DNA of 38,959 nucleotides from a virus. Both the position numbers and the translations under genes were made by a program. The stretch lies in IMG/VR virus record IMGVR_UViG_3300026097_000047, positions 1 to 38,959 of that record. The stretch is one strand, 5' to 3'. This document shows, piece after piece, positions 18,974 through 38,087 of this stretch (the first letter of the stretch is position 1; each line of letters begins with the position of its first letter). The notes beneath the pieces are model-generated. The model saw only the letters and a list, made by a program, of their open reading frames with translations, had not been told where the DNA came from and did no database searches.

Positions 18974-21900
18974 TTAGAAGAGTTGGAATCCTTGGTCCCA
19001 TTCGTTCCGGCTTTCCTCTAGCACCCTGCGCATGTTGGGGCTGAGTGTTACACCATTATACATAGTGGCCGACGTTTCCATGTGCTGCCGCATTGAACGG
19101 CGCAGCGAGTCGCCGTCGATCCGTGCCGTGCGGTGGCGGTTGTTGAACGCACGGATTTTCTTCATGACGCTGTTGCGCTCATCGTAGTCACCCATGCGAG
19201 TAGCCACATAGTACTGGCGCAGGAGTTTGGTGCGCTTGGAGTTTACCGCGCGGTCAATACCCTTTGTCTGCTGGTTCATCTCCTGCGCACGGGTATACTC
19301 TGCGGGGGCGAAGCCGATTGCTTTCGCAGCCAGCTCACCGAATGACAGATCGTCCATGATAGGGTCACCACGACGCGTCAGGATACCTTCGTCACGTGGG
19401 AAGCGGAACACCGCTTGGTAAGCGTTTCTGAGGCCAGAAGGCATCATTGCCTCGAAGCCCCGCTCGATCTCACCTTGTTTCATGTTGTCGATGCCGCGGA
19501 TAATCGAGGAGATCGTACTCCACGCTGGGCCACCTGCGTAATACAGCAGGCTTTCTTCTGGCGACGGGTCACTGTTGAAGCGGTTAGCTTGTAGGATCAG
19601 ACCGGACAGACCAATACGGCTTGACAGGTCAACACCAAGCAGCGCAGTCAGTGGCCCCTTGTATGCACCTTCGCCGATTGCTTTGCGCACCACTGTCTCA
19701 ACGTCGTCTTCTTCCTCGTCGAAGAACAACAGGTCAATCAACTGCATGATCTCCCGTGCGAACGGTAGGCCGACAGCCCCCGCGAGTACAAACGTCGATC
19801 CAACAACCCCACCTAGCTGACGCAGGGCAACATTGCGCATCTCTTTGTCACCTGCAAAGTGTGCGTCCACACCATCACGCGCTGTTTTAAGTAGCGTGTA
19901 GTACATCTGGATGCCGTAGGTCTTATACATAAGCGCCACACGCCCAACGCCTTGTTGGCTGATACGCGGCGCAGTCTCAAGCACGGAGCCACCGTTCATC
20001 ATCTGCGAGTCATACAGCGCCTGCTCCGCGGCCTTCTCCTGCCGCTCTGTTGTCGACAGTGTAGGCTCTGCAGTTTTCAGGCGTTCTAGTTCCAACTGAT
20101 ATGCGGTCATGGCGGTGACCTGACGGTTGAAGACTTCCGCGTTGTGGAAGAACGTAGCACCCACAGACGACACATAGTCAACTGCACTACGCTTACGCCC
20201 TGACGCGTCAAGCCCAAGGGTATCGGCAATCAGGGAGCGGTTGAGGTGTCCACGCTCTGCCATCAACTGCATGAGCGGTTTGATTTCTTCGACTTCCGCG
20301 CGCATCTCTGGGTCGAGTTCGATGTCCTTGCGGATTACATAATCCCCGTTTGCATCCAGTTCGAAGTAGTTGTCGATGCTTGGCATGGCACGGACTTTAA
20401 CACTCTTCTCGTCGCCGGATGGAGCGATCATGTCACTCTTGCGGTTAAACCCACTGCTCGTAAACAATTTAGTTGCGTTACGAATCGCGCGCCCCGCTGC
20501 GCCATAGCCATGACGCCCGGCCAACATAGGGTACACCACCATAGGAAGTTGTGACGTGTTGACCAACGCCGATGAGACGTTGAAACCCAGTGTGAACAAG
20601 AACGCACCGCGGTTTAGGTTCTGCGCCAACGCATCCTTGGGTGGGTTCCGTGCAAACTCTGCACGGGCGTTGATCTCGTCTAGGATGTACTTGTTCTCTT
20701 CCGTCAGCACATCGCGGTTGTCGTCAACGAGGCTTGCCTCAAGTTCGCGGATTTTGGAACTAAACCGCAGGCGTTCCACCTGCCGACCAAGATCAAACGC
20801 TTTGGTTTTGAAAGCGTCAATGGCGTCTTCTTCGTAGCCCTTTGTGCCTTTACGACGCTGCAGGGCCTTAGCAAAAGATGTTTCAGGCAGTGTCTCTACG
20901 AACAACCGCATGAGTTCTTCTTTGACTTTTGGGTCTACGCCGTTGGCGTCGAGGGTACGCAGCGTCTCTTTTACGAACGAACCTTCAGGTGCCCGTGCAT
21001 AGTTGACGTTGCTGATGTTGACGAACGGCTCTACGTTCTTGACGCCCGTGTCGGCTTTGAGGTCCTTCATCGCACGTTCACGGGCGTTCCGGCTTTGGAA
21101 AGCCTCGACGTAGAACTCTCCGTCCGCTGCCGTGTAGGACAGCCAGTAGTCTCCAGAACGTGTCAGTGGGAAGTACGGCTCGATAGTGCCGGTCTCAAAC
21201 AGACGTGCATACACCTGCTTCTTGAGTTTGTCCCGAGACTCGGCACTAAGTTCTTTGGTGTCGTCCAGCTTGCCGAAGATCACGTCACGCATCTTCAGGT
21301 ACTGTTTCTTGTACGAGTCGCGCATCTGGGCATAGATTTTATCCCCGCCAGTAGCCGACAGCGCACGCCAGTCAGCCTGCATGGACTTCCACGCTTTCAG
21401 CTTCTCAGGGTCATCTTTATACGCACTCGCCGGTTTCGACGGGTCAACCTGCTCGATGGTGCTAGTGTACACCACCGTGTCGAGTGTCTTTACTTTGTCT
21501 TTGTTCGCACGTGCCCAGTTAGACACGCTCTTCAGAGTACCTTCGACCTCTTGGTCTGACTTGTTCATCGCACCACGCTGGCGCTCCATAAGATCGAACA
21601 GGGTGTCGGCACCTTTGATACCCGCCTTCTTCGCAGTGTTCACCACCGAGATCATTGGCAAGCTATAGAGCAAGAACTGCTTGGCCTTCGCAGCGGCGTC
21701 ACCTTTAACAAAGTCTATGACTTGGTCGGCGTGTTCTTGCGCAAACTGTTTCGTGGCTGGTGGCGTGCTATCTACAATATCTTTCAGCATGTCTGCTGCA
21801 CGTTTACCCGCATCGCGGGGCGACAACATAAAGAACTCACCGGTTCCGATGTTGCTTGGTGCGGGGGCGAGAATGTTGTCAATGATACCAGTTGCTTGGT

Positions 21901-24900
21901 CTAGTGCGGACTCCGTGGGTTTCACTGGTTTGCCGATAAGCGTACGCAGGAAGTTGGAAATCGCTGCTTTGAACTTAGCAAAAGGAGTTAGGGGGTCACC
22001 CCCGACGCGTAGCCCGGACAACATCCGTTGGAACTCAGGGTTCGAGAACGCCTCTGCCACAAACTCATTCAGGTCAGTGAACCCATATGCAGTGGGCATG
22101 TGGTCTTTAGTTTCGTCAAAGATTTTCTGCAGCTTGCGCGTCAGCGGGTGGCCCTTCTTAGCCAGTGTCGCAACGGTTGCGGCGTGGGCCATCTCATGCA
22201 GAAGCACGTGAGTGTTGAGGCCGAACTTTGTCGAAAGCGCAATGGTATTTGTATCGGTGTCGAAAACCCCGGCTACTTCGGACCCGTCAGGTGCGCGCAG
22301 TGTACCAGCCAGCTCGACCTTGGTATCACCAACCATCTTGGCCAGCTTGGAAGCCACTGCAGCGACTTCGGGATCGTTGCTTGTAGCCGCCAAAGTGCGC
22401 AGCGCAGCGCCGAGATCACCCTTAGTAAGCATACCAACGACGACATTCGACAGCGGTATGCGCGATGCCGGGACGACCATGTTGAACAAACTGCCGCTGG
22501 CCATGAGGCCACGCACCATCGGGTCAGTCTCGTCGATGCCGAGCTTCTCAAGAACTTCGGCGAGGCGCTTATTGTCTGCATCATTGGTCGGGTCGAACCC
22601 ACCCTCAAACGCCTTCTCCAGCTCGCGGCGCTTGGCGACGAGGTCGGTGGACTCGAAGGCTTCGACCGCCTGCATGGCGTTCTTGGACTCTACAGTCTTA
22701 CCCGCGATCCACCGCTTGGTGGCCTCAGACATGTTCTTGCTGGCCCAATCAAGCACTGCTTGGGCTGTTTTCTTACCGTATCCGGGGATTGTACCTTTTT
22801 CGCCGTCGCCGCCAAGGAACGCGGTCTCGCCGGGGGGCATATCGGGCGTACTCTTAAATCTCCCACGACCCGTAACCACATCGTCGATAGCATCCTGCAG
22901 TCCGAGTGCCGGATCGGGATAGTTACCGAGGTACTTCTTAAGCGCACCGATGGTAGCTTTGTTGGCCTTGGTTGATTTGGTGTTAAGAACTTTTAAGATG
23001 GCAGTCTTGTCAGCAACCGTTAACGGGCTTGTGATTGACATATCCAAGTTCTTGACGAACTGGCGCGCTGCTTGGGAGACATTCGCCTCGTACCGGTCCT
23101 TCAGCTGCTTGGTAACTTGCTCGGTGCTGACTTTCGGCTTATCTGTCGGTGAGATTTTCTCACGCGGTGCCAAGGCACGGGACGTCGGCCCGGCCCGCTC
23201 TTCCGGTACAGGCTTTAGGGTCTGGCGGTCAATGACAGGGCGACGCGGTAGCGTCGGCAACACTCCCCGCTGCGTCGCGCCTTCTAGTGGAGTTCGCTGC
23301 GCGCCTGCTGCTGCTGCAGGACGAGGAGTAGCCTCGTCACGTGCTCCCAATCGTCTGCTTCTAGGTGTCGTAGGCTCTGGGGCACCTGCACCTCGACCAG
23401 CCCCCCGTCCGCCGCCTCCCACGCCGCGTCCACGACTTGGAACGCTTGCTCCAGCTCTCTCTGTGACAGGTGTGCTAGCATCGGGGGTCTCCTGAGCTTC
23501 TGCTGCAGGGCGACCTTGCTCTGTGGGTCTCGACGGAACAGCAGGTTCTGTTGCAAGTGGGGTTGGAGTAGCTGTTGTAGGGGTAGCGGCTGTGGGTCTA
23601 CGTCCGCCACGGCGGGGCGCGAACAGGTCTGGTTGTTCTTCTGGGACCCCTTCGAGGCGGCGGCTAATACCCAATTCTGCAGCTTGAGAAGTGCGCGGCT
23701 GGTTTGCAAAAGAAGTAATAATTTTACGCGTTGTAGGGTCATTTAAGTCCTTACCCAGAAGGCGGCGACGTACAGGCGACTGCGGAGCAATCCCCATTTC
23801 GTCGAGCATAGCACGAGTGACGACTTCCCGAGCTGCGGCGGGTTCGGATGCTTGTGTAGGAGCCTGCTGGACCCGGCGCCGAATCCCCTCCATACCCAAC
23901 TGCTCTGGTTCACGCTGCGCGGGCCGCTCTGGGATGCGTGCCTCCATTTCCTCCAGCTGCGTAGCCTCTGGGGGTGAGGTAACAGTCGGCGTAGCTTCGG
24001 GTTCAGGGCGCTCGGCCCGCTGCACATTCACCGCACGCTCGATGGACTGTAGTTCAGCCTGTGTGGGGGCGGTGTCGGCGATACCCTGTGCGGCCAATGC
24101 GTCGCTAAACGCGCGGCCTACACGATTGTAGTTCCGGCTGGGTGTTTTCTCGATAGTATCTTGTAAGATCTTAGTACGCGTAGCTTCAGTGGCCTTGCGA
24201 CGCCGGGTATCTTCCTGCCCACTGATCGTCTCGATGTCTGACTCTGCACGAAGGGCCTGAGCCTGTTGCTGCTGCGCGGCTTCTTCGGCTTCAATAGCGG
24301 CGAGCTGGTCGGCGATGTCTGCGTCTTCACGTGCGGTTTGCTCACGCTGCTGCGCTAGGTCTACGAGGTCACGCTCACGTACGGTCGCAGGTTCTTGTGG
24401 TGTGCCTTCCGCCGGACGCTCTGGAGTAGCAGGTTGTTCGCCCACACGACGGCGCTCTTGCTCTTGCTGCAATGCAAACAAGTCAGGTTGTTCAAACGCG
24501 GCTTCGTCACCCCGCCCTGCGGCACGCAGTGCTTCACGTTCGCGGGCGGCTGCCTGTGCGCGGGCTTCTTCTTCGGGGATTGTGGCTTGCTCTAGCTCAC
24601 GGATCATATCCCGCTGCTCAGGCTCTGGCGCACGTTCGGGGCGCTGGTCGAACAGGTTCAGCTGCCGGTCGTCAGGCCGCTCTGGTGCTCTACCCAAGTC
24701 TTCCTCGGGGAACATCTCACGTTGGTCGCCCATAACTCGCGTGGGGGCTTGCCCAAGGTCTTCGCCTTCAAACAACTCACCCTGCTCTGGCTCTTCTGGA
24801 GTAGTGGCTCCGCGCGACCGCCGACCTACGAGGGCGTCAACGAGGACTTGGATGGTTGCACCGGCCCCACCGCCGAGAGCTGCGGCTTCGCCTGCACCTT

Positions 24901-25750
24901 CAAGCACTGCTTGGTCGATGTTGTATCCACGCTCGATAAGGTTCTGTGCGATACCCGCCGCTGCTTCCTGCGCGGCCTCTTCACCACCAGTGCGCAGTGC
25001 GCTAACTACTCGCTGACGCATACCCTGCACGACCTCTCCGCCGAGATCGCCAGTGAGCTTGCCAAGGACGCGACGTAGCGGCAGCGCTTCTGTAGAGCCG
25101 ACCACCGCACCGAGCCGTGCCGCCCGATTACGCTCTTCTTGAGTGGCGCCAGCTGCGCGGGCACGTTCACTTGCTTCGCCTGCGCCTGCACCTACACCGA
25201 GAGCACTTGCACCGAGCAAACCTGCTATGCCTGCGGCACCCGCCCCTGCACCAAGAGCACCCGCCCCGGCAGTAACAGCTGCACCGGCGCCGATAAACCC
25301 AGCGATAGAGCCGAAGGTCTGCCCAATTTTATATGTAAGGTCGTCCTCGTCACCCCGGTCGGGGCGAACTCTATCCGCAAGTCCTTGAATACGCTCACGT
25401 GCGGCAAGTTCTTTCTCTTCGTCCAGCAGTGTAGCGGCACCCAGTGCCGCAGTCTCGCCAATACCAACAACACCCGCACCGAAACCACCGACTAAGTCGC
25501 CGATAAACCCACTCTCATCGGGTTCGTCAAACATAGCCTCATAGGCTGCACGTTTAGCTGCGACGTCTTCTTGGGCTGCCCGGATACGCCCTTCGCGTGC
25601 GGCAAGACGGTCTCCGTACGGGGTACCCTCATACTGCTGACGACGTGCTTGTTGAGACGCGGCACGGGCAAGGTCTTCTCTGGAGGCCCCTTCGGGTGCT
25701 TCAACGTCGAGTGTAGAACCATCCCGCAGCGTGAGAGTGTATAGGGCCAT
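18974..25750 (-). CDS. Giant virion protein with zincin motif, probably injected with DNA (2258 aa)
   Basis: A 2258-residue protein, last in the late operon. The N terminus (T-L-R-D-G-S-T-L-D-V-E-A-P-E-G-A) is followed by Gly/Ala-rich hydrophobic stretches (about 65-190), which could insert in membranes. Residues about 300-880 are disordered, rich in Glu, Arg, Gln and Pro, with several short Q-x-x-(L/M)-F-like motifs. At 1185-1189 is L-L-H-E-M-A-H, a zincin metallopeptidase signature, with a possible third ligand at Glu1229 or Glu1233. The C-terminal 950 residues are helical and resemble polyvalent-protein/ejection-protein regions. It likely enters the host with the DNA. AAGGTGA precedes ATG 25750. 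Activity is unproven. Confidence 0.75.
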   Translation of the reverse strand: MALYTLTLRDGSTLDVEAPEGASREDLARAASQQARRQQYEGTPYGDRLAAREGRIRAAQEDVAAKRAAYEAMFDEPDESGFIGDLVGGFGAGVVGIGETAALGAATLLDEEKELAARERIQGLADRVRPDRGDEDDLTYKIGQTFGSIAGFIGAGAAVTAGAGALGAGAGAAGIAGLLGASALGVGAGAGEASERARAAGATQEERNRAARLGAVVGSTEALPLRRVLGKLTGDLGGEVVQGMRQRVVSALRTGGEEAAQEAAAGIAQNLIERGYNIDQAVLEGAGEAAALGGGAGATIQVLVDALVGRRSRGATTPEEPEQGELFEGEDLGQAPTRVMGDQREMFPEEDLGRAPERPDDRQLNLFDQRPERAPEPEQRDMIRELEQATIPEEEARAQAAAREREALRAAGRGDEAAFEQPDLFALQQEQERRRVGEQPATPERPAEGTPQEPATVRERDLVDLAQQREQTAREDADIADQLAAIEAEEAAQQQQAQALRAESDIETISGQEDTRRRKATEATRTKILQDTIEKTPSRNYNRVGRAFSDALAAQGIADTAPTQAELQSIERAVNVQRAERPEPEATPTVTSPPEATQLEEMEARIPERPAQREPEQLGMEGIRRRVQQAPTQASEPAAAREVVTRAMLDEMGIAPQSPVRRRLLGKDLNDPTTRKIITSFANQPRTSQAAELGISRRLEGVPEEQPDLFAPRRGGRRPTAATPTTATPTPLATEPAVPSRPTEQGRPAAEAQETPDASTPVTERAGASVPSRGRGVGGGGRGAGRGAGAPEPTTPRSRRLGARDEATPRPAAAAGAQRTPLEGATQRGVLPTLPRRPVIDRQTLKPVPEERAGPTSRALAPREKISPTDKPKVSTEQVTKQLKDRYEANVSQAARQFVKNLDMSITSPLTVADKTAILKVLNTKSTKANKATIGALKKYLGNYPDPALGLQDAIDDVVTGRGRFKSTPDMPPGETAFLGGDGEKGTIPGYGKKTAQAVLDWASKNMSEATKRWIAGKTVESKNAMQAVEAFESTDLVAKRRELEKAFEGGFDPTNDADNKRLAEVLEKLGIDETDPMVRGLMASGSLFNMVVPASRIPLSNVVVGMLTKGDLGAALRTLAATSNDPEVAAVASKLAKMVGDTKVELAGTLRAPDGSEVAGVFDTDTNTIALSTKFGLNTHVLLHEMAHAATVATLAKKGHPLTRKLQKIFDETKDHMPTAYGFTDLNEFVAEAFSNPEFQRMLSGLRVGGDPLTPFAKFKAAISNFLRTLIGKPVKPTESALDQATGIIDNILAPAPSNIGTGEFFMLSPRDAGKRAADMLKDIVDSTPPATKQFAQEHADQVIDFVKGDAAAKAKQFLLYSLPMISVVNTAKKAGIKGADTLFDLMERQRGAMNKSDQEVEGTLKSVSNWARANKDKVKTLDTVVYTSTIEQVDPSKPASAYKDDPEKLKAWKSMQADWRALSATGGDKIYAQMRDSYKKQYLKMRDVIFGKLDDTKELSAESRDKLKKQVYARLFETGTIEPYFPLTRSGDYWLSYTAADGEFYVEAFQSRNARERAMKDLKADTGVKNVEPFVNISNVNYARAPEGSFVKETLRTLDANGVDPKVKEELMRLFVETLPETSFAKALQRRKGTKGYEEDAIDAFKTKAFDLGRQVERLRFSSKIRELEASLVDDNRDVLTEENKYILDEINARAEFARNPPKDALAQNLNRGAFLFTLGFNVSSALVNTSQLPMVVYPMLAGRHGYGAAGRAIRNATKLFTSSGFNRKSDMIAPSGDEKSVKVRAMPSIDNYFELDANGDYVIRKDIELDPEMRAEVEEIKPLMQLMAERGHLNRSLIADTLGLDASGRKRSAVDYVSSVGATFFHNAEVFNRQVTAMTAYQLELERLKTAEPTLSTTERQEKAAEQALYDSQMMNGGSVLETAPRISQQGVGRVALMYKTYGIQMYYTLLKTARDGVDAHFAGDKEMRNVALRQLGGVVGSTFVLAGAVGLPFAREIMQLIDLLFFDEEEDDVETVVRKAIGEGAYKGPLTALLGVDLSSRIGLSGLILQANRFNSDPSPEESLLYYAGGPAWSTISSIIRGIDNMKQGEIERGFEAMMPSGLRNAYQAVFRFPRDEGILTRRGDPIMDDLSFGELAAKAIGFAPAEYTRAQEMNQQTKGIDRAVNSKRTKLLRQYYVATRMGDYDERNSVMKKIRAFNNRHRTARIDGDSLRRSMRQHMETSATMYNGVTLSPNMRRVLEESRNEWDQGFQLF

Positions 25751-28578: not shown

Positions 28579-29508
28579 TTACGCCCTCATCCCCGGCATG
28601 TACTGCGCCGGGTTAATCTGTTTGCCTTGCTTGGGGTTACCCGTGCGCGCTTTCCGAACGTTGTCCATCATCGCGTACAGCTGCATAACACCAGCGTTAG
28701 AGTTGCCGTTACCGAGGTGACTTACAACATCGGCGGGGATTACAAACTCTCCGTCGGAGAGTCGGGCCTCTTGCTGCCCATCAATGTTCGCAGGGACTTT
28801 ATCAGCCATGCCATCGGTGGCGCCGTCGAGGTAGCGCCCACCTGCTAAGTTAGCAATGCCGCCTTGGGCGTATTGTGGGACGAACCCAGATAGCCCCTGC
28901 GTCTGTGTCTCGACTGGCATATTTTGAATGACATTAGCGGGGGCACGAGAAACGATTGGGGAGGTGTTACCTGTGGGCTGCGCCGCAAACTGCAGGGGTG
29001 TAGGGCGGGTTTGCATCGCGGGGTTGGCGACGTTTTGCCCTCGGAGATACTCGGCCTGCTTACCCGCAAGTTGACGCACGATATCAAGCGCCGCCAAACC
29101 CTCTTCGCTAGGGTCTTGAGAGACAACTTCTGTAGCAGTTGTATCCGCGGTGTCTGTGGCGGCGTCCGCTTCTGCTACCGTGTCGCCAGCTGCGTCGTTA
29201 GCAACCGCCGTTTCGAGGGGGGCGTACGGGTCTACATACTGCGTATCGGTGAAGTACCGCTGCCCGCTGCTACCGGGGCGACGGTTAGGATCGTAGGTAT
29301 CAGCTACACGTTCGCGCACCGCCGTGTACCGGGGGACGCTACCTTGATACCCAGTTTGAGGGGCATCGCTGTTAGCAAAACCGGAATTGCTCAAGAAGTA
29401 ACTACCCGCAAGGCTACCAACACCCTGCCAGTTTACGCTGCCAAGCACATCGTTGAAGTTAGTGTCACCACCACCCAACCAGTCCAGAGTGTTGCTCCAA
29501 AAACTCAT
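28579..29508 (-). CDS. Virion-associated protein with C-terminal Gly-Gly motif domain (309 aa)
   Basis: A 309-residue protein. The first 190 residues are low-complexity, Ala/Asp/Thr-rich and contain an acidic stretch. The C-terminal 100 residues form a more conserved-looking domain: Y-A-Q-G-G-I-A-N-L-A, G-R-Y-L-D-G, M-A-D-K-V-P-A-N-I-D-G-Q and L-S-D-G-E-F-V-I-P-A-D-V-V-S-H-L-G. From memory this domain is common in phage virion loci but has no firm function. The ATG overlaps the previous gene's stop (ATGA), and AGGGGAAAAC lies upstream. Confidence 0.65.
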   Translation of the reverse strand: MSFWSNTLDWLGGGDTNFNDVLGSVNWQGVGSLAGSYFLSNSGFANSDAPQTGYQGSVPRYTAVRERVADTYDPNRRPGSSGQRYFTDTQYVDPYAPLETAVANDAAGDTVAEADAATDTADTTATEVVSQDPSEEGLAALDIVRQLAGKQAEYLRGQNVANPAMQTRPTPLQFAAQPTGNTSPIVSRAPANVIQNMPVETQTQGLSGFVPQYAQGGIANLAGGRYLDGATDGMADKVPANIDGQQEARLSDGEFVIPADVVSHLGNGNSNAGVMQLYAMMDNVRKARTGNPKQGKQINPAQYMPGMRA

Positions 29509-32500
29509 CCGTTTTCCCCTATAATAAGTAAGATTTTATCAGTTAAGTCCCCTACTTGTCCACCCTTAGCATAGGGGCGCACGAAAAGCTCCTCCTGCTC
29601 AGGCGTAGCAAAGATACTGCTGAAGTCGTAGAGGTACTCTAACTCCAGCGGGTCAGGCGTTTCGACGTCAACACGTTGCCCCTCCAAATCAGTCTGTGCT
29701 CGCAGGGTACGCGCAAAATCAGATACGTTACGGCGCTGCTGCTGTATTTGGATTTGCTGCTGTATTTGGATTTGCTGCTGTATTTGCTGCTCTTGCTGCT
29801 GCTGAATATCTAGTTGGTTTTGTGCGATCTCCGCCAAAACTTCTGCATAGGGGTCTGTCTCCGCCGTCTCGTCTACGGTCTCGTCGATTATAGTGTCTAC
29901 GTCGTCTACGGTCTCATCGACTACGTCGACTACGTCGTCTGCAGGTTGGTCAACTACTTCATCGACTACGTCGTCTACAGGCTGGTCAACTACCTCATCG
30001 ACTACATCGTCTGCAGGCTGGTCAACTACTTCATCGACTACGTCGTCTACAGGCTGGTCAACTACTTCATCGACTACGTCGTCTGCAGGCTGGTCAACTA
30101 CTTCATCGACTACGTCGTCTGCAGGCTGGTCAACTACTTCATCGACTACGTCGTCTGCAGGCTGGTCAACTACCTCATCGACTACGTCGTCTGCAGGCTG
30201 GTCAACTACCTCATCGACTACGTCGTCTACAGGCTGGTCAACTACCTCATCGACTACGTCGTCTACAGGCTGGTCAACTACTTCATCGACTACGTCGTCT
30301 ACGGTCTCGTCGGGTGTATATTCGGTTATGTAGTCGTCATACCAGTTCGTATTAGAATCTACGTCGTCTGCGGGTTCGTCAACTACCTCATCGACTACGT
30401 CGTCTGCGGGTTCGTCAACTACGTCGTCTGCGGGTTCGTCAACTACTTCATCGACTACGTCGTCTGCAGGTTGGTCAACTACCTCATCGACTTCATCGAC
30501 TTCATCGACTACGTCGTCTGCGGGTTCGTCAACTACCTCATCGACTACGTCGTCTGCAGGCTGGTCAACTACCTCATCGACTACGTCGTCTGCAGGCTGG
30601 TCAACTACCTCATCGACTACGTCGTCTGCAGGCTGGTCAACTACCTCATCGACTACGTCGTCTGCGGGTTGGTCAACTACCTCATCGACTACGTCGTCTG
30701 CAGGCTGGATTATGCGTTCGTCGTACGTGTCACCTGCGTCGTAATCGTATACTTTGCCATACGGAGTAGTAAGCGTGCCGTCGCCGTTGTCGCTCCACCC
30801 CTGCGTACTAATGAGAAGACGTTCTATGGGGTTTATGCCAATGGCGGTATCTACATACTGGCGAGCATCCCGCGAAACTTTGTCCACGTCTTGCTGTCTT
30901 ACAAACTGTGCTACCTCTTCGTCAGTTGGGTCATACCCCATGTCGGCAAACAGTTGGCGGGCTTCATCTTCAGTTACTTGGTTTACGTCAACAAACTGCG
31001 ACAGTTCGTCGAGAATGTCGTTTTCTGCGCCTTGCCGAGTAAACTGCTCGACTTGTTCATCGGTAGGGTCGAAGCCTTGAGCTTGGAACGCCTCACGTAC
31101 TTCCTGCTCGTTGGTAGCCAAGGAGTCAAACTGAGATACAAGATATTCTGTGGCTGCGCTCTTGTCCTCAACACGACCTGCACGCTCGAATATCTCTTCG
31201 TCGCTTAGTTCTAGCCCCTCTGCCTCTGCGTACGCGCGGACTTCGGTTGGGCTGATATAGCGAGATTCAACATAAGTATTGACGTAGGTAGTGACGTCTT
31301 CTCCGGCGCTGTTAAGCACCAAGTTTACGAGTTCTTTGTCAGTTGTAGCAAAGCCGGGGTACTTGGCGAGTTCGTTCATCACCTGCCCGGTGCTGTTGTA
31401 GCTATCGTCGACGGTGCTTAGTAGGTTATTGCGCAAGTTCTCATACGCCGGTCCTTCCGCAAACTCAGTGCCTTCTACAACGCCATCTAAGTAATCAGTC
31501 AAAGCCGTTACGGCTAGCCGGGCGCGCAGGAGTTCAAACCCCGGTTTTTTCGCCTCGTTAATAATCTCATTTGCACGGGGGTCAGTACGAATAATAAGGT
31601 CTGCCAATGTAGAGCCTGTGTATATACCTCCCGCAGTGCCTGCGCCAGCAATCGACCCGAGAGCTGCAGCCTGTGCGACAGTGCCGAGCACGTCGCGGTC
31701 AGGGTCAACTTGCTTCAACACCGTTTCAACAAAGAGTGTGGGTAGACCTTCCTCGATAGACTCCTGTACACCTTCATTCCAAGACACCCGCGCACCGGTG
31801 CTAATCTTTTCTGTGAGCCAGTCGAACGCTTCCGCGGTTGTACCCGCCGAGTCTTTGCCCAAGAACACTTTTTCAAAGTCGTTACCGCCTATGCCGAAGC
31901 TAGCGAGGGTAGTAGCTGCGCTTATGAGGCCCGCGGACTGTGCTAGCTCCATGGCGGCTGCTTTAGCCTCTTCCTCCGACATACCTGCAGCAAGATAAGT
32001 GGCCAGACCCTCGTTGTACGCACTGTCTGCCGCACCGCCGAAAGACTCGGCAAGGTCGAGCGCAGACGAGGTACCGATGCCGACACGCTGTGCGGCTCGA
32101 TCCGACAGTTCTTTACCCATGGCACGGAAGATTCCTTTGGCGCCGACCATGGTGCCCTTAGAGGCAAGAAGCCACGGCAGTTCTTGGATAATCTCCGCCC
32201 CAATAAGTTCGGCGACAAACTGCTCAGGAGCTTCTTGGAACGCGCCCCAAATACTGCCTAGTTTTTCCCACCCTTCGCCTTCCGCGAGCTTCGCGTCAAT
32301 CCGGTCGAGCGCCTCCGCCCATTCTTCAGTCTGTAGCCCCGCACCGAAGTCGATAACGTCGTCAGCAAACTGGCCGACGGGGTTGGAGTTTGGGTCAAAC
32401 CCAAGCGTAATATCCACGAACGCGGTCATGGTGCCGAGCAGTTCACCACCCGCTTTTGCTATTAGCCCGCCGTAGTCTCTAGCGTTATCAACGCCCACCA

Positions 32501-34817
32501 ACGTATCAATAAGCTCAGTTCCGGTTTCTGCCCCTATGCGTTTTGCCGCATCAAAATAACCGGCTTCATCCCACTTGTTGAGAAAATCAACAACATCCTG
32601 ACCAACCCGCGATGCAAGAACAGCTTGGCCCGCCTCGTTTAAACCCGCACCGATCTGTGCCCACGTCCCAGCGTCGGATTCTCTGAGGTCGTCATACGTC
32701 GGGAGTGGTGTAATTTCGATCTGCAGATTGTCTGACAGGCGTTCACCGGTAAGGGCGCTCACCTCCACATATTCGCCGCTATTCAGCCCACCTTCAACAG
32801 GTACGCGTTTGACCAAAGTGTTGAACTGGGGACTCCAATACGGGGTCTCGTAAGTTACCTTGCCCCACTCCAAAAGCCCATCTTGCCGAACCCTTAAACC
32901 CGCTTCGCCCAGAGCAATTTCTTCGTCAGTAACATCTGCCCGCGAAGTGTTTACCAAGTCGTTTTGTGCCTGTCCGGTATACGTTCTTTCTAGTGCGTCG
33001 ATGTCAGACTGGATTAGCGGCTCGCCTTCGATAAAATCTGTCACCCCCGCACGGTTGAGGAGGTCAGCGATTGGCGCGTCGATAGTAGGCGCCACGCCTG
33101 ACTCAAACGCCCTCTTGATAGAGTTGACCGTACTAAGATTAAGCACGGGCGCCCCAACGCCACTAGCCACAAAGTCTTCCGCAATCTCAGCAAGCCCAGT
33201 ATTACGTAGTGCGGTTATATCTCCTCCGGCGCTATCCTCCACCAAATCAACGAGGACCTGACGCTGTACATCATTCAGCTGTGTTAAATCTACCCCAAGA
33301 TATTCTGCGGCGCTGTTTAGTACACCTTGAAACTTCGCACTGTACTCTTCGTTGTACGCCGCTTGGTTGGTAGGCAAGCCCTGCGCTTTGCCTTCAGTCA
33401 GCCAGTGGAAGTACGCATCTTCGTCTGCGTCGAGTCCCGCAATGCGACGGTATTCTGCCTCGTTGAAGTTCGGGTCCATAAACTGCACAAAAGATTTGTC
33501 CAGCTCATTATAGAGGGGCGTCAGCTCCTCGTCAGCTAGCTCGACGGCGGTGGTCAGGTCTGCTTGCAGGACCGTAAATTCGGATTGCGCCTTGTTATAG
33601 TCTGCCTCCAACTTTGGCAGCTCCGCATCAATACGCTCTAGCTCCGCACGGAGGGCGGGGTACTCTTCGTTAAACGGTTTGGATACCGCGTTGTACGCAG
33701 CTACAGCCTTTTCCAACGCTATCGCGTTTTCTTCTGACTCGTTGGCTTCGAAGTTCTGCAGGGCGAGGTCGTACGCGGCTTCGAGTTTGGTTAACCGCTC
33801 TCCCGTGGCGTTTATTTGCCCAGCAATTTCGTTACGCCGCGCAAGGCGCCCGTTGTACGCTTGGACCTTGTCTTCTAGTTCTCTGGCTTTTGCTTCTACC
33901 CGTTGGTAGTCGCCAGTCAACTTGTCCATAGTTTGGGTGACAGCCACACCCGCGGCAGTGGTGTTGAACCAGTCTTTAAATTCTGTGTTGGCGTAGTTGT
34001 TTAGGCTTTCCGCAAGCGCTCCCTCGATGTCACCTCCACCGAATGCCGCTGAGGCTGTACGCTGCACGGCTGAAGTAATCGCCGCAATCTCCCCATCAGC
34101 AAAGTCGGTAGCATCGCCAACAAAGTCTTTAACTACCTTGGTTACAGATTCGGCTTTTAGCGCGGCATTGAGAACAGACTCTGGAGTGACATCTTGCCCA
34201 GATAAAGTACGCGCGATAGAAGAAGTAATGACATTCTTGGCGACATCGGGTAGGGCATCGAACATGCCACTTGTTTGCTCGTCAATGTAGCCATTTATTG
34301 CGGGTAGCGCCGCACTAATACCACCAGTAACGAAGGCTTGCACGGGGTCCTGCCCGTAAACAATAGCGCGCGCCGCGGCACCAGACCCAGTACCGACCGC
34401 CGTGGCAATAACCGCATTCCCAGTAGCCTCAAGTGCGAAGTCACCAGCAAGCTCACCAGCAACATCGCCTACACCCTGCGCCACATAAGAAACAGCGGCG
34501 GCTTTGAGGGCGTCTCCGAGGTCGCCACCTTGAGCTAATGTGCCTGCCCCTTCAATCAGAGGCACAGCCCATGTTTGCCCAGTAGCTATCGCAGCTATTT
34601 TTAGTACCGCTTGCCCTATCTCAGACTCGAATACGTCAACGACAAGGTCACCGACAGGCTTTACGATCTCTTCGTATACCCAATCAGCCGCACCGGTGGT
34701 GTGCGAGAGGACAGCTGCACCAGTACCAATGACGACAGCGGCGCCAACCGCGGCGCCCACGCCTACGGCGGCTGCTCCTGCTCCGACCCCTATAGCTACG
34801 GGTATAAGTACTGGCAT
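29505..34817 (-). CDS. Giant virion protein with acidic 12-residue repeats (1770 aa)
   Basis: A 1770-residue protein. The N terminus (about 3-40) is Ala/Gly/Val-rich and membrane-like. Residues about 290-440 form a coiled coil (many E/A/L/K heptads). Around 460-500 is a segment F-H-W-L-T-E-G-K-A-Q-G-L. Hydrophobic Gly/Ala helices lie near 1040-1140. Then come three degenerate repeats with G-(Y/F/L)-x-(P/L)-(T/S)-D-E-(E/Q). Residues about 1367-1645 are acidic 12-mers (D-D-V-V-D-E-V-V-D-Q-P-A). A Gln-rich helix and a C-terminal Y-A-K-G-G-Q-V follow. It is likely an internal/ejected virion or tape-measure-like protein; this is inferred from size, composition and operon place. Confidence 0.65.
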   Translation of the reverse strand: MPVLIPVAIGVGAGAAAVGVGAAVGAAVVIGTGAAVLSHTTGAADWVYEEIVKPVGDLVVDVFESEIGQAVLKIAAIATGQTWAVPLIEGAGTLAQGGDLGDALKAAAVSYVAQGVGDVAGELAGDFALEATGNAVIATAVGTGSGAAARAIVYGQDPVQAFVTGGISAALPAINGYIDEQTSGMFDALPDVAKNVITSSIARTLSGQDVTPESVLNAALKAESVTKVVKDFVGDATDFADGEIAAITSAVQRTASAAFGGGDIEGALAESLNNYANTEFKDWFNTTAAGVAVTQTMDKLTGDYQRVEAKARELEDKVQAYNGRLARRNEIAGQINATGERLTKLEAAYDLALQNFEANESEENAIALEKAVAAYNAVSKPFNEEYPALRAELERIDAELPKLEADYNKAQSEFTVLQADLTTAVELADEELTPLYNELDKSFVQFMDPNFNEAEYRRIAGLDADEDAYFHWLTEGKAQGLPTNQAAYNEEYSAKFQGVLNSAAEYLGVDLTQLNDVQRQVLVDLVEDSAGGDITALRNTGLAEIAEDFVASGVGAPVLNLSTVNSIKRAFESGVAPTIDAPIADLLNRAGVTDFIEGEPLIQSDIDALERTYTGQAQNDLVNTSRADVTDEEIALGEAGLRVRQDGLLEWGKVTYETPYWSPQFNTLVKRVPVEGGLNSGEYVEVSALTGERLSDNLQIEITPLPTYDDLRESDAGTWAQIGAGLNEAGQAVLASRVGQDVVDFLNKWDEAGYFDAAKRIGAETGTELIDTLVGVDNARDYGGLIAKAGGELLGTMTAFVDITLGFDPNSNPVGQFADDVIDFGAGLQTEEWAEALDRIDAKLAEGEGWEKLGSIWGAFQEAPEQFVAELIGAEIIQELPWLLASKGTMVGAKGIFRAMGKELSDRAAQRVGIGTSSALDLAESFGGAADSAYNEGLATYLAAGMSEEEAKAAAMELAQSAGLISAATTLASFGIGGNDFEKVFLGKDSAGTTAEAFDWLTEKISTGARVSWNEGVQESIEEGLPTLFVETVLKQVDPDRDVLGTVAQAAALGSIAGAGTAGGIYTGSTLADLIIRTDPRANEIINEAKKPGFELLRARLAVTALTDYLDGVVEGTEFAEGPAYENLRNNLLSTVDDSYNSTGQVMNELAKYPGFATTDKELVNLVLNSAGEDVTTYVNTYVESRYISPTEVRAYAEAEGLELSDEEIFERAGRVEDKSAATEYLVSQFDSLATNEQEVREAFQAQGFDPTDEQVEQFTRQGAENDILDELSQFVDVNQVTEDEARQLFADMGYDPTDEEVAQFVRQQDVDKVSRDARQYVDTAIGINPIERLLISTQGWSDNGDGTLTTPYGKVYDYDAGDTYDERIIQPADDVVDEVVDQPADDVVDEVVDQPADDVVDEVVDQPADDVVDEVVDQPADDVVDEVVDEPADDVVDEVDEVDEVVDQPADDVVDEVVDEPADDVVDEPADDVVDEVVDEPADDVDSNTNWYDDYITEYTPDETVDDVVDEVVDQPVDDVVDEVVDQPVDDVVDEVVDQPADDVVDEVVDQPADDVVDEVVDQPADDVVDEVVDQPADDVVDEVVDQPVDDVVDEVVDQPADDVVDEVVDQPVDDVVDEVVDQPADDVVDVVDETVDDVDTIIDETVDETAETDPYAEVLAEIAQNQLDIQQQQEQQIQQQIQIQQQIQIQQQRRNVSDFARTLRAQTDLEGQRVDVETPDPLELEYLYDFSSIFATPEQEELFVRPYAKGGQVGDLTDKILLIIGENG
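29743..29804 (-). repeat. Short Gln/Ile-coding tandem repeat
   Basis: About three copies of an 18-base unit (CTGCTGTATTTGGATTTG on the + strand), followed by CTGCTG-rich sequence. On the coding strand it gives Q-I-Q-I-Q-Q and a Gln run near the end of the giant protein. Slippage-prone; probably a flexible helix. Confidence 0.75.
29884..30717 (-). repeat. 36-bp minisatellite coding acidic 12-residue repeats
   Basis: Around twenty 36-base units code D-D-V-V-D-E-V-V-D-(Q/E)-P-(A/V). They fall in two blocks (about 29884-30311 and 30361-30717) split by a unique segment coding N-T-N-W-Y-D-D-Y. Units in the block nearer the C terminus are almost identical in DNA, suggesting recent expansion or gene conversion; the other block has more Glu/Gln changes and a shortened unit. 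The opposite strand is also open for 464 codons, only because of the period-12 codon pattern. Confidence 0.9.
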
Positions 34818-35291
34818 TTAGAGCCTCCAGAACTCGTCTAGCGAGTCTTTACCAATTTTAATGAACGCTCGGTATCCACCGGTATCTAACCGTACCACAT
34901 CTATTTCGGTATCAGTATCCTTTGTTTTGTTATACCAAAACTGAAACGCTGACAAATACTCTTCTGCGTTGAAGTCTGTACGATAAAATTCGACTTTTTT
35001 CTTCTGTAAGTAGGCTAGGTACTTCAGACCGTTGCGTACAAAATTTTGCGCCGTGTCGAGGTTAAGCGCCCGCCCCTCCATCACATTCTTGTACTTGCCT
35101 TTGCCGCGGTGCCCTATGAACACCGTATTGCCAATCTGCACTTGGTCAGTGTTAGGCAGAGACAACTCACCCGCAAGCGCCGCGATTACCTTACCCACAG
35201 GCTGGTCTGTGTTGTTTAGCTCCGCCGCTGCGGTCATAATGATTTCAGGAGCCGGTAGGGGCGTCTGTTTGCTGTCTACAACGGTAACCAT
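34818..35291 (-). CDS. Unknown protein (157 aa) downstream of the ACP gene
   Basis: A 157-residue protein of mixed alpha/beta character. It contains G-N-T-V-F-I-G-H-R-G-K-G, L-N-L-D-T-A-Q-N-F-V-R-N-G-L-K-Y and, near the end, G-G-Y-R-A-F-I-K-I-G-K-D-S-L. The fold cannot be named; some residues recall GNAT-like acyltransferases, which would fit an acyl carrier neighbour, but I see no clear acetyl-CoA site. ATG overlaps the ACP gene stop (TAATG), so the two are probably co-translated. It lies between the ACP and a giant virion protein. Confidence 0.6.
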   Translation of the reverse strand: MVTVVDSKQTPLPAPEIIMTAAAELNNTDQPVGKVIAALAGELSLPNTDQVQIGNTVFIGHRGKGKYKNVMEGRALNLDTAQNFVRNGLKYLAYLQKKKVEFYRTDFNAEEYLSAFQFWYNKTKDTDTEIDVVRLDTGGYRAFIKIGKDSLDEFWRL

Positions 35292-35572
35292 TATGCGGCC
35301 TCCATAACTTCTTCTATTGACTGCACGTCTTTTGTCTTGTGCTGGTTGACGTAGTCTCGCACCGTACCGACCGTGAACTTGTTCACGTTATCGAACTCCA
35401 AATCGTTCGGGATGCCGTACGCATCGGTCAAAACCGCAAGCACCATAATCATGTCTAGGCTGTCTATGCCGAGGTCTACCGGCTCTTCATCGTAGCTTGT
35501 TGCGTCTTTGGCGTTGTCTCCACGAGACACAGCAGCTTTCGCTGCGGCATTAAATACATCTAAAAAGTTCAT
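35291..35572 (-). CDS. Acyl carrier protein-like protein
   Basis: A 93-residue protein with the acyl carrier signature D-L-G-I-D-S38-L-D-M, where Ser38 is the expected 4'-phosphopantetheine attachment site. It is followed by helix II (I-M-V-L-A-V-L-T-D-A-Y-G-I) and F-T-V-G-T-V-R-D-Y-V, matching helix IV of ACPs. Length and acidity fit the family. No fatty-acid or polyketide enzyme is nearby; the neighbours are virion genes. It would need the host's phosphopantetheinyl transferase. Possible roles are lipid or virion-protein acylation or diversion of host fatty-acid synthesis; none is shown. GGGGGAGAGACT lies before the ATG. Confidence 0.8.
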   Translation of the reverse strand: MNFLDVFNAAAKAAVSRGDNAKDATSYDEEPVDLGIDSLDMIMVLAVLTDAYGIPNDLEFDNVNKFTVGTVRDYVNQHKTKDVQSIEEVMEAA

Positions 35573-35583
35573 AGTCTCTCCCC

Positions 35584-36207
35584 CTACAAGTTGCTGACAA
35601 ACGATACAGCCACAATGGTCGAGGGTATACCGGGGTGCAAGCTAGTAGCTGCTTCAGTGTAGAGCGACAGGGTAGTGTCAGAAGTCGCCCAGTACATCTC
35701 AATGTAATCGTTTGCCAGTAGGTCGATAGAGAAGTTCCAGTACAGTGCACGGGTAGCGTTACCTTTCACCGTCTGCACCTGCCCGCCGTACGGCACGTCG
35801 GTGCCACTCTTGTTGATCCACGTTGTTACGGTGACGTCCGACGAATTTGTATGCGCAGTCTGCATAGTGACTTGGAAGTTGTAGACCCCGTCTGCCGACA
35901 CAGTAATCCGCGTGTCATCTGCACCGGCAATCGAAACACCGTTACCGATATAGGTGTTCTCGAACTCTACTGGATAGCCAGTATCCACTGCTGCTGCTGT
36001 CTGATTAGCGGTGCTGTAGAATAAGCCACGAGGCATGTATAGAAACTTGCCGCCGTCGTCGGTACTCAATAGCGCGCCTAGAGTAGACGTAAGCCGGTTG
36101 AAGAACAGCCGAAAGACGTTGTCCTTCTGGTCCATATACGGGCGGTTGTAGTCCGCCGTGGGTAGCGGAATCGCTGGTGGCTCTGGACGATCTATCTGGT
36201 TAGCCAT
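35584..36207 (-). CDS. Virion protein with jelly-roll-like (C1q/TNF-like) domain
   Basis: A 207-residue protein. The N-terminal 50 residues (P-Y-M-D-Q-K-D-N-V-F-R-L-F-F-N-R-L) look like an attachment helix. The rest is beta-rich, with T-V-S-A-D-G-V-Y-N-F-Q-V-T-M-Q and N-D-Y-I-E-M-Y-W-A-T-S-D spacing typical of C1q/TNF-like jelly rolls found in phage receptor-binding or head decoration proteins. This is a judgement from strand pattern, not proof. The start overlaps the previous gene's stop (TAATG). Confidence 0.6.
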   Translation of the reverse strand: MANQIDRPEPPAIPLPTADYNRPYMDQKDNVFRLFFNRLTSTLGALLSTDDGGKFLYMPRGLFYSTANQTAAAVDTGYPVEFENTYIGNGVSIAGADDTRITVSADGVYNFQVTMQTAHTNSSDVTVTTWINKSGTDVPYGGQVQTVKGNATRALYWNFSIDLLANDYIEMYWATSDTTLSLYTEAATSLHPGIPSTIVAVSFVSNL

Positions 36208-38087
36208 TACCGCCTCCCGTCAGGGCGGATGTCTATTCTCGGTGTGCCCAACTGCCACTGCACCCCTAGTGCGTTGGACTCGATCTTTACTGCCAGCTGC
36301 CGCCCCCGCACGCGGGTGTTTATCTGCCCAGTGTACTGCTCAATAGGCAAAGTGGCCGTGCGAGTCACCGCTGCGTTGTTTACGCCGCCTTCTGACGTAG
36401 GGCTATTGTATCCAGAACCGGAGTTAGCCAGCGGCAAGAGAGTCATAGTAGCTGCAGGGGCGTCAGAAGTAGACCCCGTGAATGTCATATCCGGCAGCAC
36501 CCGCCAGATAAACGAGAACCTGTCGCCGCTATCAATGTCAAACTGCGTAGATGTGATGTACGCGTCTATAGGCACGGGGGTAGCAGTTTCGGCGTCGTCT
36601 AGCCCAACTTCATGGGACACCAAGTTATTGCTGTATGTGGCAGCTACCGGGCTAGAGACTAAATCTGAATCCAGCCATGCAGTGCGGCCCATAGTGCCGT
36701 AGTACCAGATGTTCTGTACATAGTTATACACAACGTACCGGTCGATTGTAGTGGAGTCAGCGGAACAGTAGAACCACCATACCTCGTTATACTGTTCGTT
36801 AGTGCCCGCGTGCACCTGTTGGTACTGCTGCTCGTTAAAGTCGTTGAACACATAACGCTTTACCGCGCATGGGAGTGGCTGTATGCGACCGTCATATATA
36901 TAAAACTTACCAAGCCCCATCCAGAACGATATGCCCGCCGCGTACGCGGTAGCATTTTGCGATGCGATAGAGATATTGGCACCCAGAAGTTGCGTGGTCC
37001 ATACACCACCACCCGCGCCGACATATTGCATAGAGTAGACCGCAGTGTCAGTCCAAACTAGAATTTCCTGCCGCGACTGCAGCGCCGTAACGATTTCGCT
37101 ACCCTTAGAAAGCCGGATGCTGCCAGATTGGTTTGTTGCTGAAGGCGTCCAATTCGTCACATCTTCTTGGTCAGACCAACGTACCAGTAGTGGGTCTTGT
37201 GTAGAACCACCAAGTTCGTTCGCCCCAAAGCAGAACACAAACCGGCTGACGTCTGATACAAGCACATAGTTCTGTACTGTGGGTACGTTAGACGCGCCCC
37301 CCAGCGAGGAAACAAGTACAGCACGGTTGCCTGTACCCGCAGAAGTATCCCAATAGTAGAGCGCGCCCCCACGAGGGCCGAATACAAGGTCCTCACCAAA
37401 ATTACCCTGACTCCACAGGCGTATGGCCTCTAAGTCCGTGGCGTCAGACCCTCCGAAACCCCATGCACCCGTACTCCAAGTAGATGCACCCCACCCACTT
37501 ATAGGTTCAGCGAACTCTGGTCCCGGACTAATCTGATACGCACCTACCGTAGACGCGCCGCCGCCCCCCGTGTCAGAAGCGTTCGCAGTGGCAGTGGCAG
37601 TTATTGTGAATGTGTCTGCGGTAGGTACAGTTACGACTTGGTACTCTTGGTTTAGCACATCGGCGGTAATGTTACCCCCGAGAGAGACCGCACCACTGAA
37701 CGTAACGAAGTCTCCTACATCGGCACCATGCGCGGTATCTGATACTGTGATCGTGGCACTGCCGTCCGTCGCGGAAAAGGTCACATCCCCTGCAGCGGTA
37801 GTCACACGGAGCGGCGTGATGTCGTAATACGCGCCACCTCTATCTATGTAGTATTTGAGGTTTGTGCCTACTGACGTGTACGTCTCTTGGTCTAGCCCTA
37901 CCCATGCCGATAGCGCGCGACATACCCCTTGAAACGTACGGTTTGAAACCCGCGCCCAACCACCAATTTTCTCGGGTAACCCGTCCCGGAACCGAACTTT
38001 GTCCATGTCATACCACCCGCCTTCCGCGGTGTAGGACGTAACTTCTCGGTTGATACCCGGTTTGAATTTTAGCTGCTGGAGAGGCAT
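36207..38087 (-). CDS. Virion connector/stabilisation protein, P22 gp10-like type (626 aa)
   Basis: A 626-residue beta-rich protein. The start L-K-F-K-P-G-I-N-R-E-V-T-S-Y and G-G-W-Y-D-M-D-K-V-R-F-R-D-G-L-P-E-K are typical of a widespread podovirus-like virion family related in pattern to P22 gp10 (tail stabilisation/hub). An insertion of about 90 residues (approx. 95-185) carries Gly/Thr/Ala-rich repeats such as G-D-F-V-T-F-S-G-A, an Ig-like or carbohydrate-contact decoration. The rest has W-x-D-x-A-V-Y-S and W-W-F-Y patterns. It probably forms part of the tail-head junction. Confidence 0.65.
   Translation of the reverse strand: MPLQQLKFKPGINREVTSYTAEGGWYDMDKVRFRDGLPEKIGGWARVSNRTFQGVCRALSAWVGLDQETYTSVGTNLKYYIDRGGAYYDITPLRVTTAAGDVTFSATDGSATITVSDTAHGADVGDFVTFSGAVSLGGNITADVLNQEYQVVTVPTADTFTITATATANASDTGGGGASTVGAYQISPGPEFAEPISGWGASTWSTGAWGFGGSDATDLEAIRLWSQGNFGEDLVFGPRGGALYYWDTSAGTGNRAVLVSSLGGASNVPTVQNYVLVSDVSRFVFCFGANELGGSTQDPLLVRWSDQEDVTNWTPSATNQSGSIRLSKGSEIVTALQSRQEILVWTDTAVYSMQYVGAGGGVWTTQLLGANISIASQNATAYAAGISFWMGLGKFYIYDGRIQPLPCAVKRYVFNDFNEQQYQQVHAGTNEQYNEVWWFYCSADSTTIDRYVVYNYVQNIWYYGTMGRTAWLDSDLVSSPVAATYSNNLVSHEVGLDDAETATPVPIDAYITSTQFDIDSGDRFSFIWRVLPDMTFTGSTSDAPAATMTLLPLANSGSGYNSPTSEGGVNNAAVTRTATLPIEQYTGQINTRVRGRQLAVKIESNALGVQWQLGTPRIDIRPDGRR

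Follow-up and report, generated by a model that had tools for sequence, protein, structure and literature searches.

A phage acyl carrier protein gene in a virion operon and its association with ketosynthase and predicted GNAT-fold genes

The locus and its acyl carrier protein

The window is the whole of IMG/VR virus record IMGVR_UViG_3300026097_000047 (38,959 nucleotides). An earlier note on this DNA had proposed an acyl carrier protein (ACP) with a D-S-L-D-M phosphopantetheine site at 35291-35572, encoded within the virion operon. The note did not give the strand; the plus-strand reading of 35291-35572 is interrupted by stops, and the ACP reading frame lies on the minus strand. The features of the locus, in the order in which they are read, are as follows.

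36207-38087, minus strand: 626-aa virion protein, PHROG 3287 (head and packaging), whose homologues are annotated “stabilization protein”
35584-36207, minus strand: 207-aa jelly-roll-like virion protein with a weak BclA_C match (E 1.7e-4), the upstream neighbour of the ACP gene
35576-35584, minus strand: Shine-Dalgarno-like GGGGGAGAG, a strong ribosome-binding sequence ahead of the ACP start and abutting the jelly-roll stop codon (direct reading)
35291-35572, minus strand: ACP gene, 93 aa, MNFLDVFNAAAKAAVSRGDNAKDATSYDEEPVDLGIDSLDMIMVLAVLTDAYGIPNDLEFDNVNKFTVGTVRDYVNQHKTKDVQSIEEVMEAA; Ser38 codon at 35459-35461, in the motif GIDSLDM
35289-35293, minus strand: TAATG, in which the ACP stop codon and the ATG of the 157-aa partner have one base in common (direct reading)
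34818-35291, minus strand: 157-aa partner with a predicted GNAT (Gcn5-type acyltransferase) fold (model), in the slot of P22 gp14 and T7 gp13
29505-34817, minus strand: 1770-aa protein directly downstream of the partner, with a hydrophobic, Gly/Ala-rich N-terminus

This gene order bears out the placement of the ACP gene between the 207-aa jelly-roll-like gene and the 157-aa partner gene. Co-translation with the partner, which the note had also proposed, is well founded, since the TAATG shares a base between the stop of one gene and the start of the other.

Taken singly, the window sequence gives weak support for an ACP. It matches Pfam PP-binding (PF00550) with E 0.0037 and 17.9 bits, below the cut-off of 20.8, PHROG 5934 (“acyl carrier protein”) with E 7e-4, and the NCBIfam ACP profile with E 1e-5, which is under the NCBIfam cut-off. 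A profile of 35 phage homologues matches solved ACPs with E 6e-6, and the motif D-S-L-D-M occupies residues 37-41. Across 182 contig-distinct homologues the DSxD signature is present in every one, as DSLD (166), DSMD (13) or DSFD (3). The AlphaFold model (pLDDT 88.8, pTM 0.82) has predicted helices at residues 3-14, 31-34, 38-52 and 68-78, which puts Ser38 at the start of helix II. Nearly all Foldseek and VIA-align matches of this model are carrier proteins or ACPs, the best VIA-align match having a Z score of 8.1 and an rmsd of 2.5 over 74 residues. The Z scores are no higher than 6.5-8.1, which is usual for a helical protein of this small size, and the case for an ACP is therefore made by sequence profile, motif and fold jointly.

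Homologues with 75-88% identity to the window ACP occur in four other viral contigs. In this KS-less lineage (KS, ketosynthase), dN/dS is about 0.07-0.14 where it can be computed (0.07 for the window and L002, 0.11 for L002 and L004, 0.11 for the window and L008), synonymous sites being saturated for the window against L004 and L005; the gene is under strong purifying selection. A chance motif or spurious reading frame at 35291-35572 is ruled out by the profile, the fold, the 75-88% homologues and the dN/dS values. By family and predicted fold, the window gene product is a stand-alone ACP, in agreement with the note. It resembles the AcpP of type II fatty-acid synthesis (FAS; PF00550) in its size, helical fold, profile match and DSLD motif with the serine starting helix II. 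It differs in falling under the Pfam and NCBIfam cut-offs, in a predicted extra C-terminal helix (86-92), and in being phage-encoded, in a virion operon without fabD, fabG or fabI.

No phosphopantetheinyl transferase of the ACPS/Sfp family was detected in any of 31 phage records, in a search that did detect its positive controls. Because all 31 records tested lack such an enzyme, the phage ACP would be primed by the AcpS/Sfp of the host.

Ketosynthase and gene arrangement in related phages

In the phage record collection, MW202545 alone is a full-length relative, and it is the most window-like record outside IMG/VR. Downstream of its stabilisation protein gene come an ACP gene, a gene annotated “3-oxoacyl-ACP synthase”, and a homologue of the 157-aa gene. 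With this KS as query, at least 51 IMG/VR loci were found, and the set was widened by ACP-family and partner-family profile searches. A beta-ketoacyl-ACP synthase gene lies directly behind a homologous ACP gene on at least 172 viral contigs. The only KS genes without a preceding ACP gene are on two contigs that both start inside the KS; wherever the contig reaches, the ACP precedes. The KS gene begins at the ACP stop codon, and the public start, approximately 50 codons further downstream in MW202545, is annotated that much too late (L001:14438-15534; MW202545.1 22437-23533).

The KS family matches FabF-type structures by profile (E 2e-28), and the catalytic Cys, both His and the Lys are kept in each full copy examined. 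Against the full-length equivalog TIGR03150 it scores 99.5 bits, with a cut-off of 493.75, so we regard the phage enzyme as a divergent KS and not as a FabF orthologue. It is like FabF/KAS II in its thiolase-superfamily profile match and Cys-His-His-Lys set. Unlike FabF/KAS II, it is compact (about 370 aa), its first 100 residues are divergent, its C-terminal “GFGG” loop reads “AGMGN”, and the phage proteins form one phage-only clade, separate from the cellular KS included in the tree. The family is matched by phrog_35856 (“unknown function”; L022:7845-8948, L174:6279-7388), which could be renamed. Within the bacterial and archaeal genome collection, a single locus encodes a close relative of the phage KS: L215 (JAGYJQ010000016.1), a 37.6-kb contig of a Balneolaceae MAG. 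The contig probably represents a phage, or a prophage, that was binned together with its host, and it offers a possible host hint.

The note had also remarked that no lipid-synthesis enzymes are near. This holds for the window, where KS, FabZ and FabG-type reductase were not found, and is misleading for the group, since most relatives have a KS directly behind the ACP. No KS occurs elsewhere in the genome of the window or in those of other KS-less relatives (six records). FabG-type reductase was found in none of the phages searched, and FabZ in the record of L208 only; the Balneolaceae genome behind L215 has cellular FabG and FabZ copies of its own. At L208:2773-4632, ACP and KS are followed by FabZ (3-hydroxyacyl-ACP dehydratase, NCBIfam 2.7e-50), ahead of an HTH gene. 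This is the fullest phage fatty-acid module in this analysis; that it is a cellular fab operon is ruled out by the KS tree and by its helicase/HTH/DUF3310-like context, which mark it as phage. The fabG-acpP-fabF set described for Rhodobacteraceae prophages has the cellular fab gene order.

The most frequently recovered arrangement is stabilisation protein-ACP-KS-partner (at least 111 unique contigs), followed by ACP-KS with neither neighbour in view (at least 50), stabilisation protein-partner without ACP and KS (at least 16), the window type, stabilisation protein-ACP-partner (at least 11), and other arrangements (at least 12, most of them cut by contig ends); these counts are lower bounds and not frequencies, the searches having been seeded with ACP, KS and partner proteins. 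The usual position of the KS gene is the slot between the stabilisation protein and partner genes, behind the ACP. The stabilisation protein gene is split into two overlapping frames at L120:1903-3827 (a frameshift or an assembly error). On about 50 contigs the ACP-KS pair lies instead in a replication operon, after a helicase gene and before a small HTH-type gene and DUF3310-like and other early genes, these neighbour names being our reading of the sequences and not the result of family searches. Three replication-type genomes inspected at the virion operon have the partner there, with no ACP-KS pair beside it; two other long replication-type records have no partner, and in one of them (G017) the virion operon is cut short where the contig stops.

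According to the KS tree, the ACP-KS pair switched context at least twice. On the partner tree, ACP presence needs at least five changes, and KS presence likewise at least five. Five of the seven ACP-only loci fall in one supported group (95), and the closest relatives of the window by partner include ACP-only and ACP-less loci as well as one with ACP-KS (L063). Between the window and L063, the stabilisation proteins are 77%, the jelly-roll proteins 75% and the partners 80% identical, compared with only 30% for the ACPs; because the flanks are so much closer than the ACPs, the content of the slot appears to have been swapped rather than merely eroded. L007 has no ACP, and its stabilisation protein, jelly-roll protein and partner are 76%, 81% and 75% identical to those of the window. 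The note had held that absence of the gene from close relatives with an intact operon would refute its proposal. Such a relative exists in L007, and what it demonstrates is that the ACP gene is accessory; it is no argument against the identity of the protein. The ACP/KS module is accessory and mobile.

Isolates carry other cargo in the same region, and for this reason the stretch from stabilisation to ejection genes appears to be an accessory-gene hot spot; in Pelagibacter phage HTVC023P (L269:9136-13178), for example, a glycosyltransferase gene and small genes lie between the stabilisation protein homologue and the ejection-type genes.

The partner and its predicted GNAT fold

The 157-aa protein, to which the note assigned no role, is confidently predicted to have a GNAT acyltransferase fold. 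Its model, built from a 35-member alignment (pLDDT 90.5, pTM 0.85), has the GNAT order of elements, namely two helices, three strands, a helix, a strand, a helix and two strands. The leading Foldseek matches and all VIA-align matches are GNAT acyltransferases, the best of the latter having a Z score of 10.8 and an rmsd of 2.6 over 128 residues. The LuxI-type acyl-homoserine-lactone synthases BjaI and TofI are among the Foldseek matches, but GNATs of all kinds are represented there too, which gives a LuxI-type synthase no preference; a few RNase E chains also appear. At the sequence level, the partner has no match in Pfam, PHROGs, NCBIfam or PADLOC, none of its 35 aligned members matches a Pfam GNAT (Acetyltransf_*) profile, and its profile finds no relative among the sequences of solved structures.

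Three residues of the partner are invariant (N77, D79 and N83) and lie between the strand at 70-77 and the helix at 81-97, a region that, judging from the fold, would be where GNATs bind the pantetheine arm. The canonical pyrophosphate loop for acyl-CoA is not apparent. Since this loop and a Pfam GNAT match are both missing, the partner may be a non-catalytic structural protein with a GNAT fold.

The slot of the partner, just before the ejection proteins, is that of P22 gene 14 (order 10-26-14-7-20-16) and T7 gene 13. Slot and size agree with T7 gp13 and P22 gp14 (DUF2824), whereas sequence homology to T7 gp13, P22 gp14 or CRP-902 gp35 was not detected by hhalign and HMMER with these as single sequences. 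In cobaviruses, a GNAT beside the internal virion proteins has been likened to T7 gp13 (PMC6775973), and in the Roseobacter phage isolate CRP-902 the slot of the partner is occupied by a protein with a Pfam GNAT match (E 3.4e-8).

Possible roles of the module

We tentatively prefer the reading that the window encodes a host-primed ACP belonging to a mobile acyl-chain module, with the GNAT-fold partner as its likeliest user in the virion-operon version. A host phosphopantetheinyl transferase would convert the phage ACP to holo-ACP. The ACP would act within an accessory module with KS (once also with FabZ), placed in either the virion or the replication operon, and the presence of KS and, once, FabZ argues that this module handles growing acyl chains. 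Where KS is present, the phage KS would lengthen the chain held on the ACP, using malonyl groups from the host, and host FabG, FabZ and FabI would complete each cycle; in the KS-less lineage of the window, host fatty-acid enzymes would charge the ACP. In the virion-operon version, the coupled partner would then be the likeliest to use the acyl-ACP, moving the acyl group to an acceptor, possibly a membrane-active ejection protein encoded next to it. Judged from its position, the 1770-aa protein is probably an ejection-type virion protein and a candidate for this acceptor.

Support for this reading comes from the family and fold of the ACP, the gene order ACP-KS-partner and the KS catalytic residues, both conserved, the confidently predicted GNAT fold, the lack of a phage phosphopantetheinyl transferase in the records tested and the purifying selection. 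There is precedent for GNATs that are supplied with acyl groups by carrier proteins (SbzI, SbzC and FeeM; PMC6331615; 8zt4), and 8zt4 is among the structural matches of the ACP model. The logic proposed for the phage partner is that of SbzI/SbzG and FeeM, where the carrier protein serves as acyl donor to a GNAT. Acyl transfer onto a virion protein is plausible. The more specific proposal, in which the ACP (with KS tailoring the chain) feeds a GNAT-fold acyltransferase that lipidates an ejection protein and so aids entry into or crossing of the host envelope, is in our judgement somewhat unlikely. Co-occurrence of ACP and partner carries little weight as evidence, because the whole phage group shares the partner. 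The basic role of the partner is independent of the module, since it also occurs without ACP and KS on at least 16 contigs.

It is quite possible that the ACP, with KS and sometimes FabZ, reprograms host fatty-acid synthesis, shifting its flux or chain length for membrane supply or fluidity; the partner would then be a structural protein that has nothing to do with the adjacent ACP, and the virion operon would be no more than a convenient slot for late expression. The replication-operon copies beside the helicase gene, with at least two moves of context, fit this explanation, as do the addition of FabZ in one phage and the exchange of slot content between flanks that stay 75-80% identical. The position of ACP-KS on about 50 contigs, away from the partner, speaks more for a general role inside the cell than for one tied to the virion; together with the partners that lack ACP and KS, it makes host reprogramming without the partner nearly as likely as the reading we prefer. 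Published phage ACPs have been interpreted in the same way, as auxiliary metabolic genes (PMC11705849, PMC8224337). What such reprogramming leaves unaccounted for is the adjacency and coupling to the GNAT-fold gene, which survive both deep divergence (partners about 25% identical) and loss of KS. A lone ACP, as in the window, is also unlikely to have a large effect on host FAS, given the great abundance of host AcpP.

It is unlikely that the ACP moonlights, serving a virion or host protein as a structural or chaperone-type adaptor and docking through its 4'-phosphopantetheine arm in the manner of mitochondrial ACP in complex I or AcpP with MukBEF. The KS-less lineage does keep the ACP under selection beside a virion gene, and subunit-type ACPs are among the profile and fold matches, but most relatives pair the ACP with an intact KS, and once with FabZ as well, which points to acyl-chain chemistry. 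Interference, with the phage ACP (and KS) titrating host fatty-acid enzymes, phosphopantetheinyl transferase or CoA, or blocking an ACP-dependent host process or defence, is very unlikely: the accessory, mobile distribution is typical for host-interaction genes, but a complete catalytic set in each full KS copy examined is unexpected for a pure decoy, and there was no PADLOC match.

Stand-alone phage ACPs have been reported from Alteromonas phage R22Y, Erythrobacter phage R6L and Rhodobacteraceae prophages, their function being termed unclear or auxiliary metabolic (PMC11705849, PMC5463345, PMC8224337). The window ACP is like these in being phage-encoded and standing alone; those reports, in the portions available, do not mention a virion operon with a phage KS and a GNAT-fold partner. 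Neither a phage ACP-KS pair of this type nor a link between such a pair and a virion-operon protein with a GNAT fold is described in the open-access literature searched. Phage ACPs have been reported singly, as isolated curiosities whose function is unclear. The ACP described here is instead one of two or three genes of an acyl-chain module, the others encoding the ketosynthase and the predicted GNAT-fold protein. Well over a hundred phage contigs from the environment have this module, which is accessory, is exchanged as one piece and occurs in either of two operons. The pairing of ACP with KS in many related viruses suggests that these phages produce or divert acyl chains themselves while they infect. 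The earlier note had guessed at acylation of a virion protein, membrane lipid manipulation or capture of host fatty-acid enzymes; acylation by way of the GNAT-fold partner and fatty-acid manipulation are both plausible and now have concrete components. Why a phage should carry an ACP becomes a testable problem of enzymology, and a possible reason is offered for the recurrence of GNAT-fold proteins beside podovirus ejection proteins.

Two further proteins of the window have unusual features. Acidic repeats of the PADDVVDEVVDQ type form a long array close to the C-terminus of the 1770-aa protein, which has no match in PHROGs. The late operon has at its far end the gene for a 2258-aa protein (18974-25750, minus strand); a match to giant “DarB-like antirestriction” proteins (PHROG 10089) lies in the C-terminal part of this protein.
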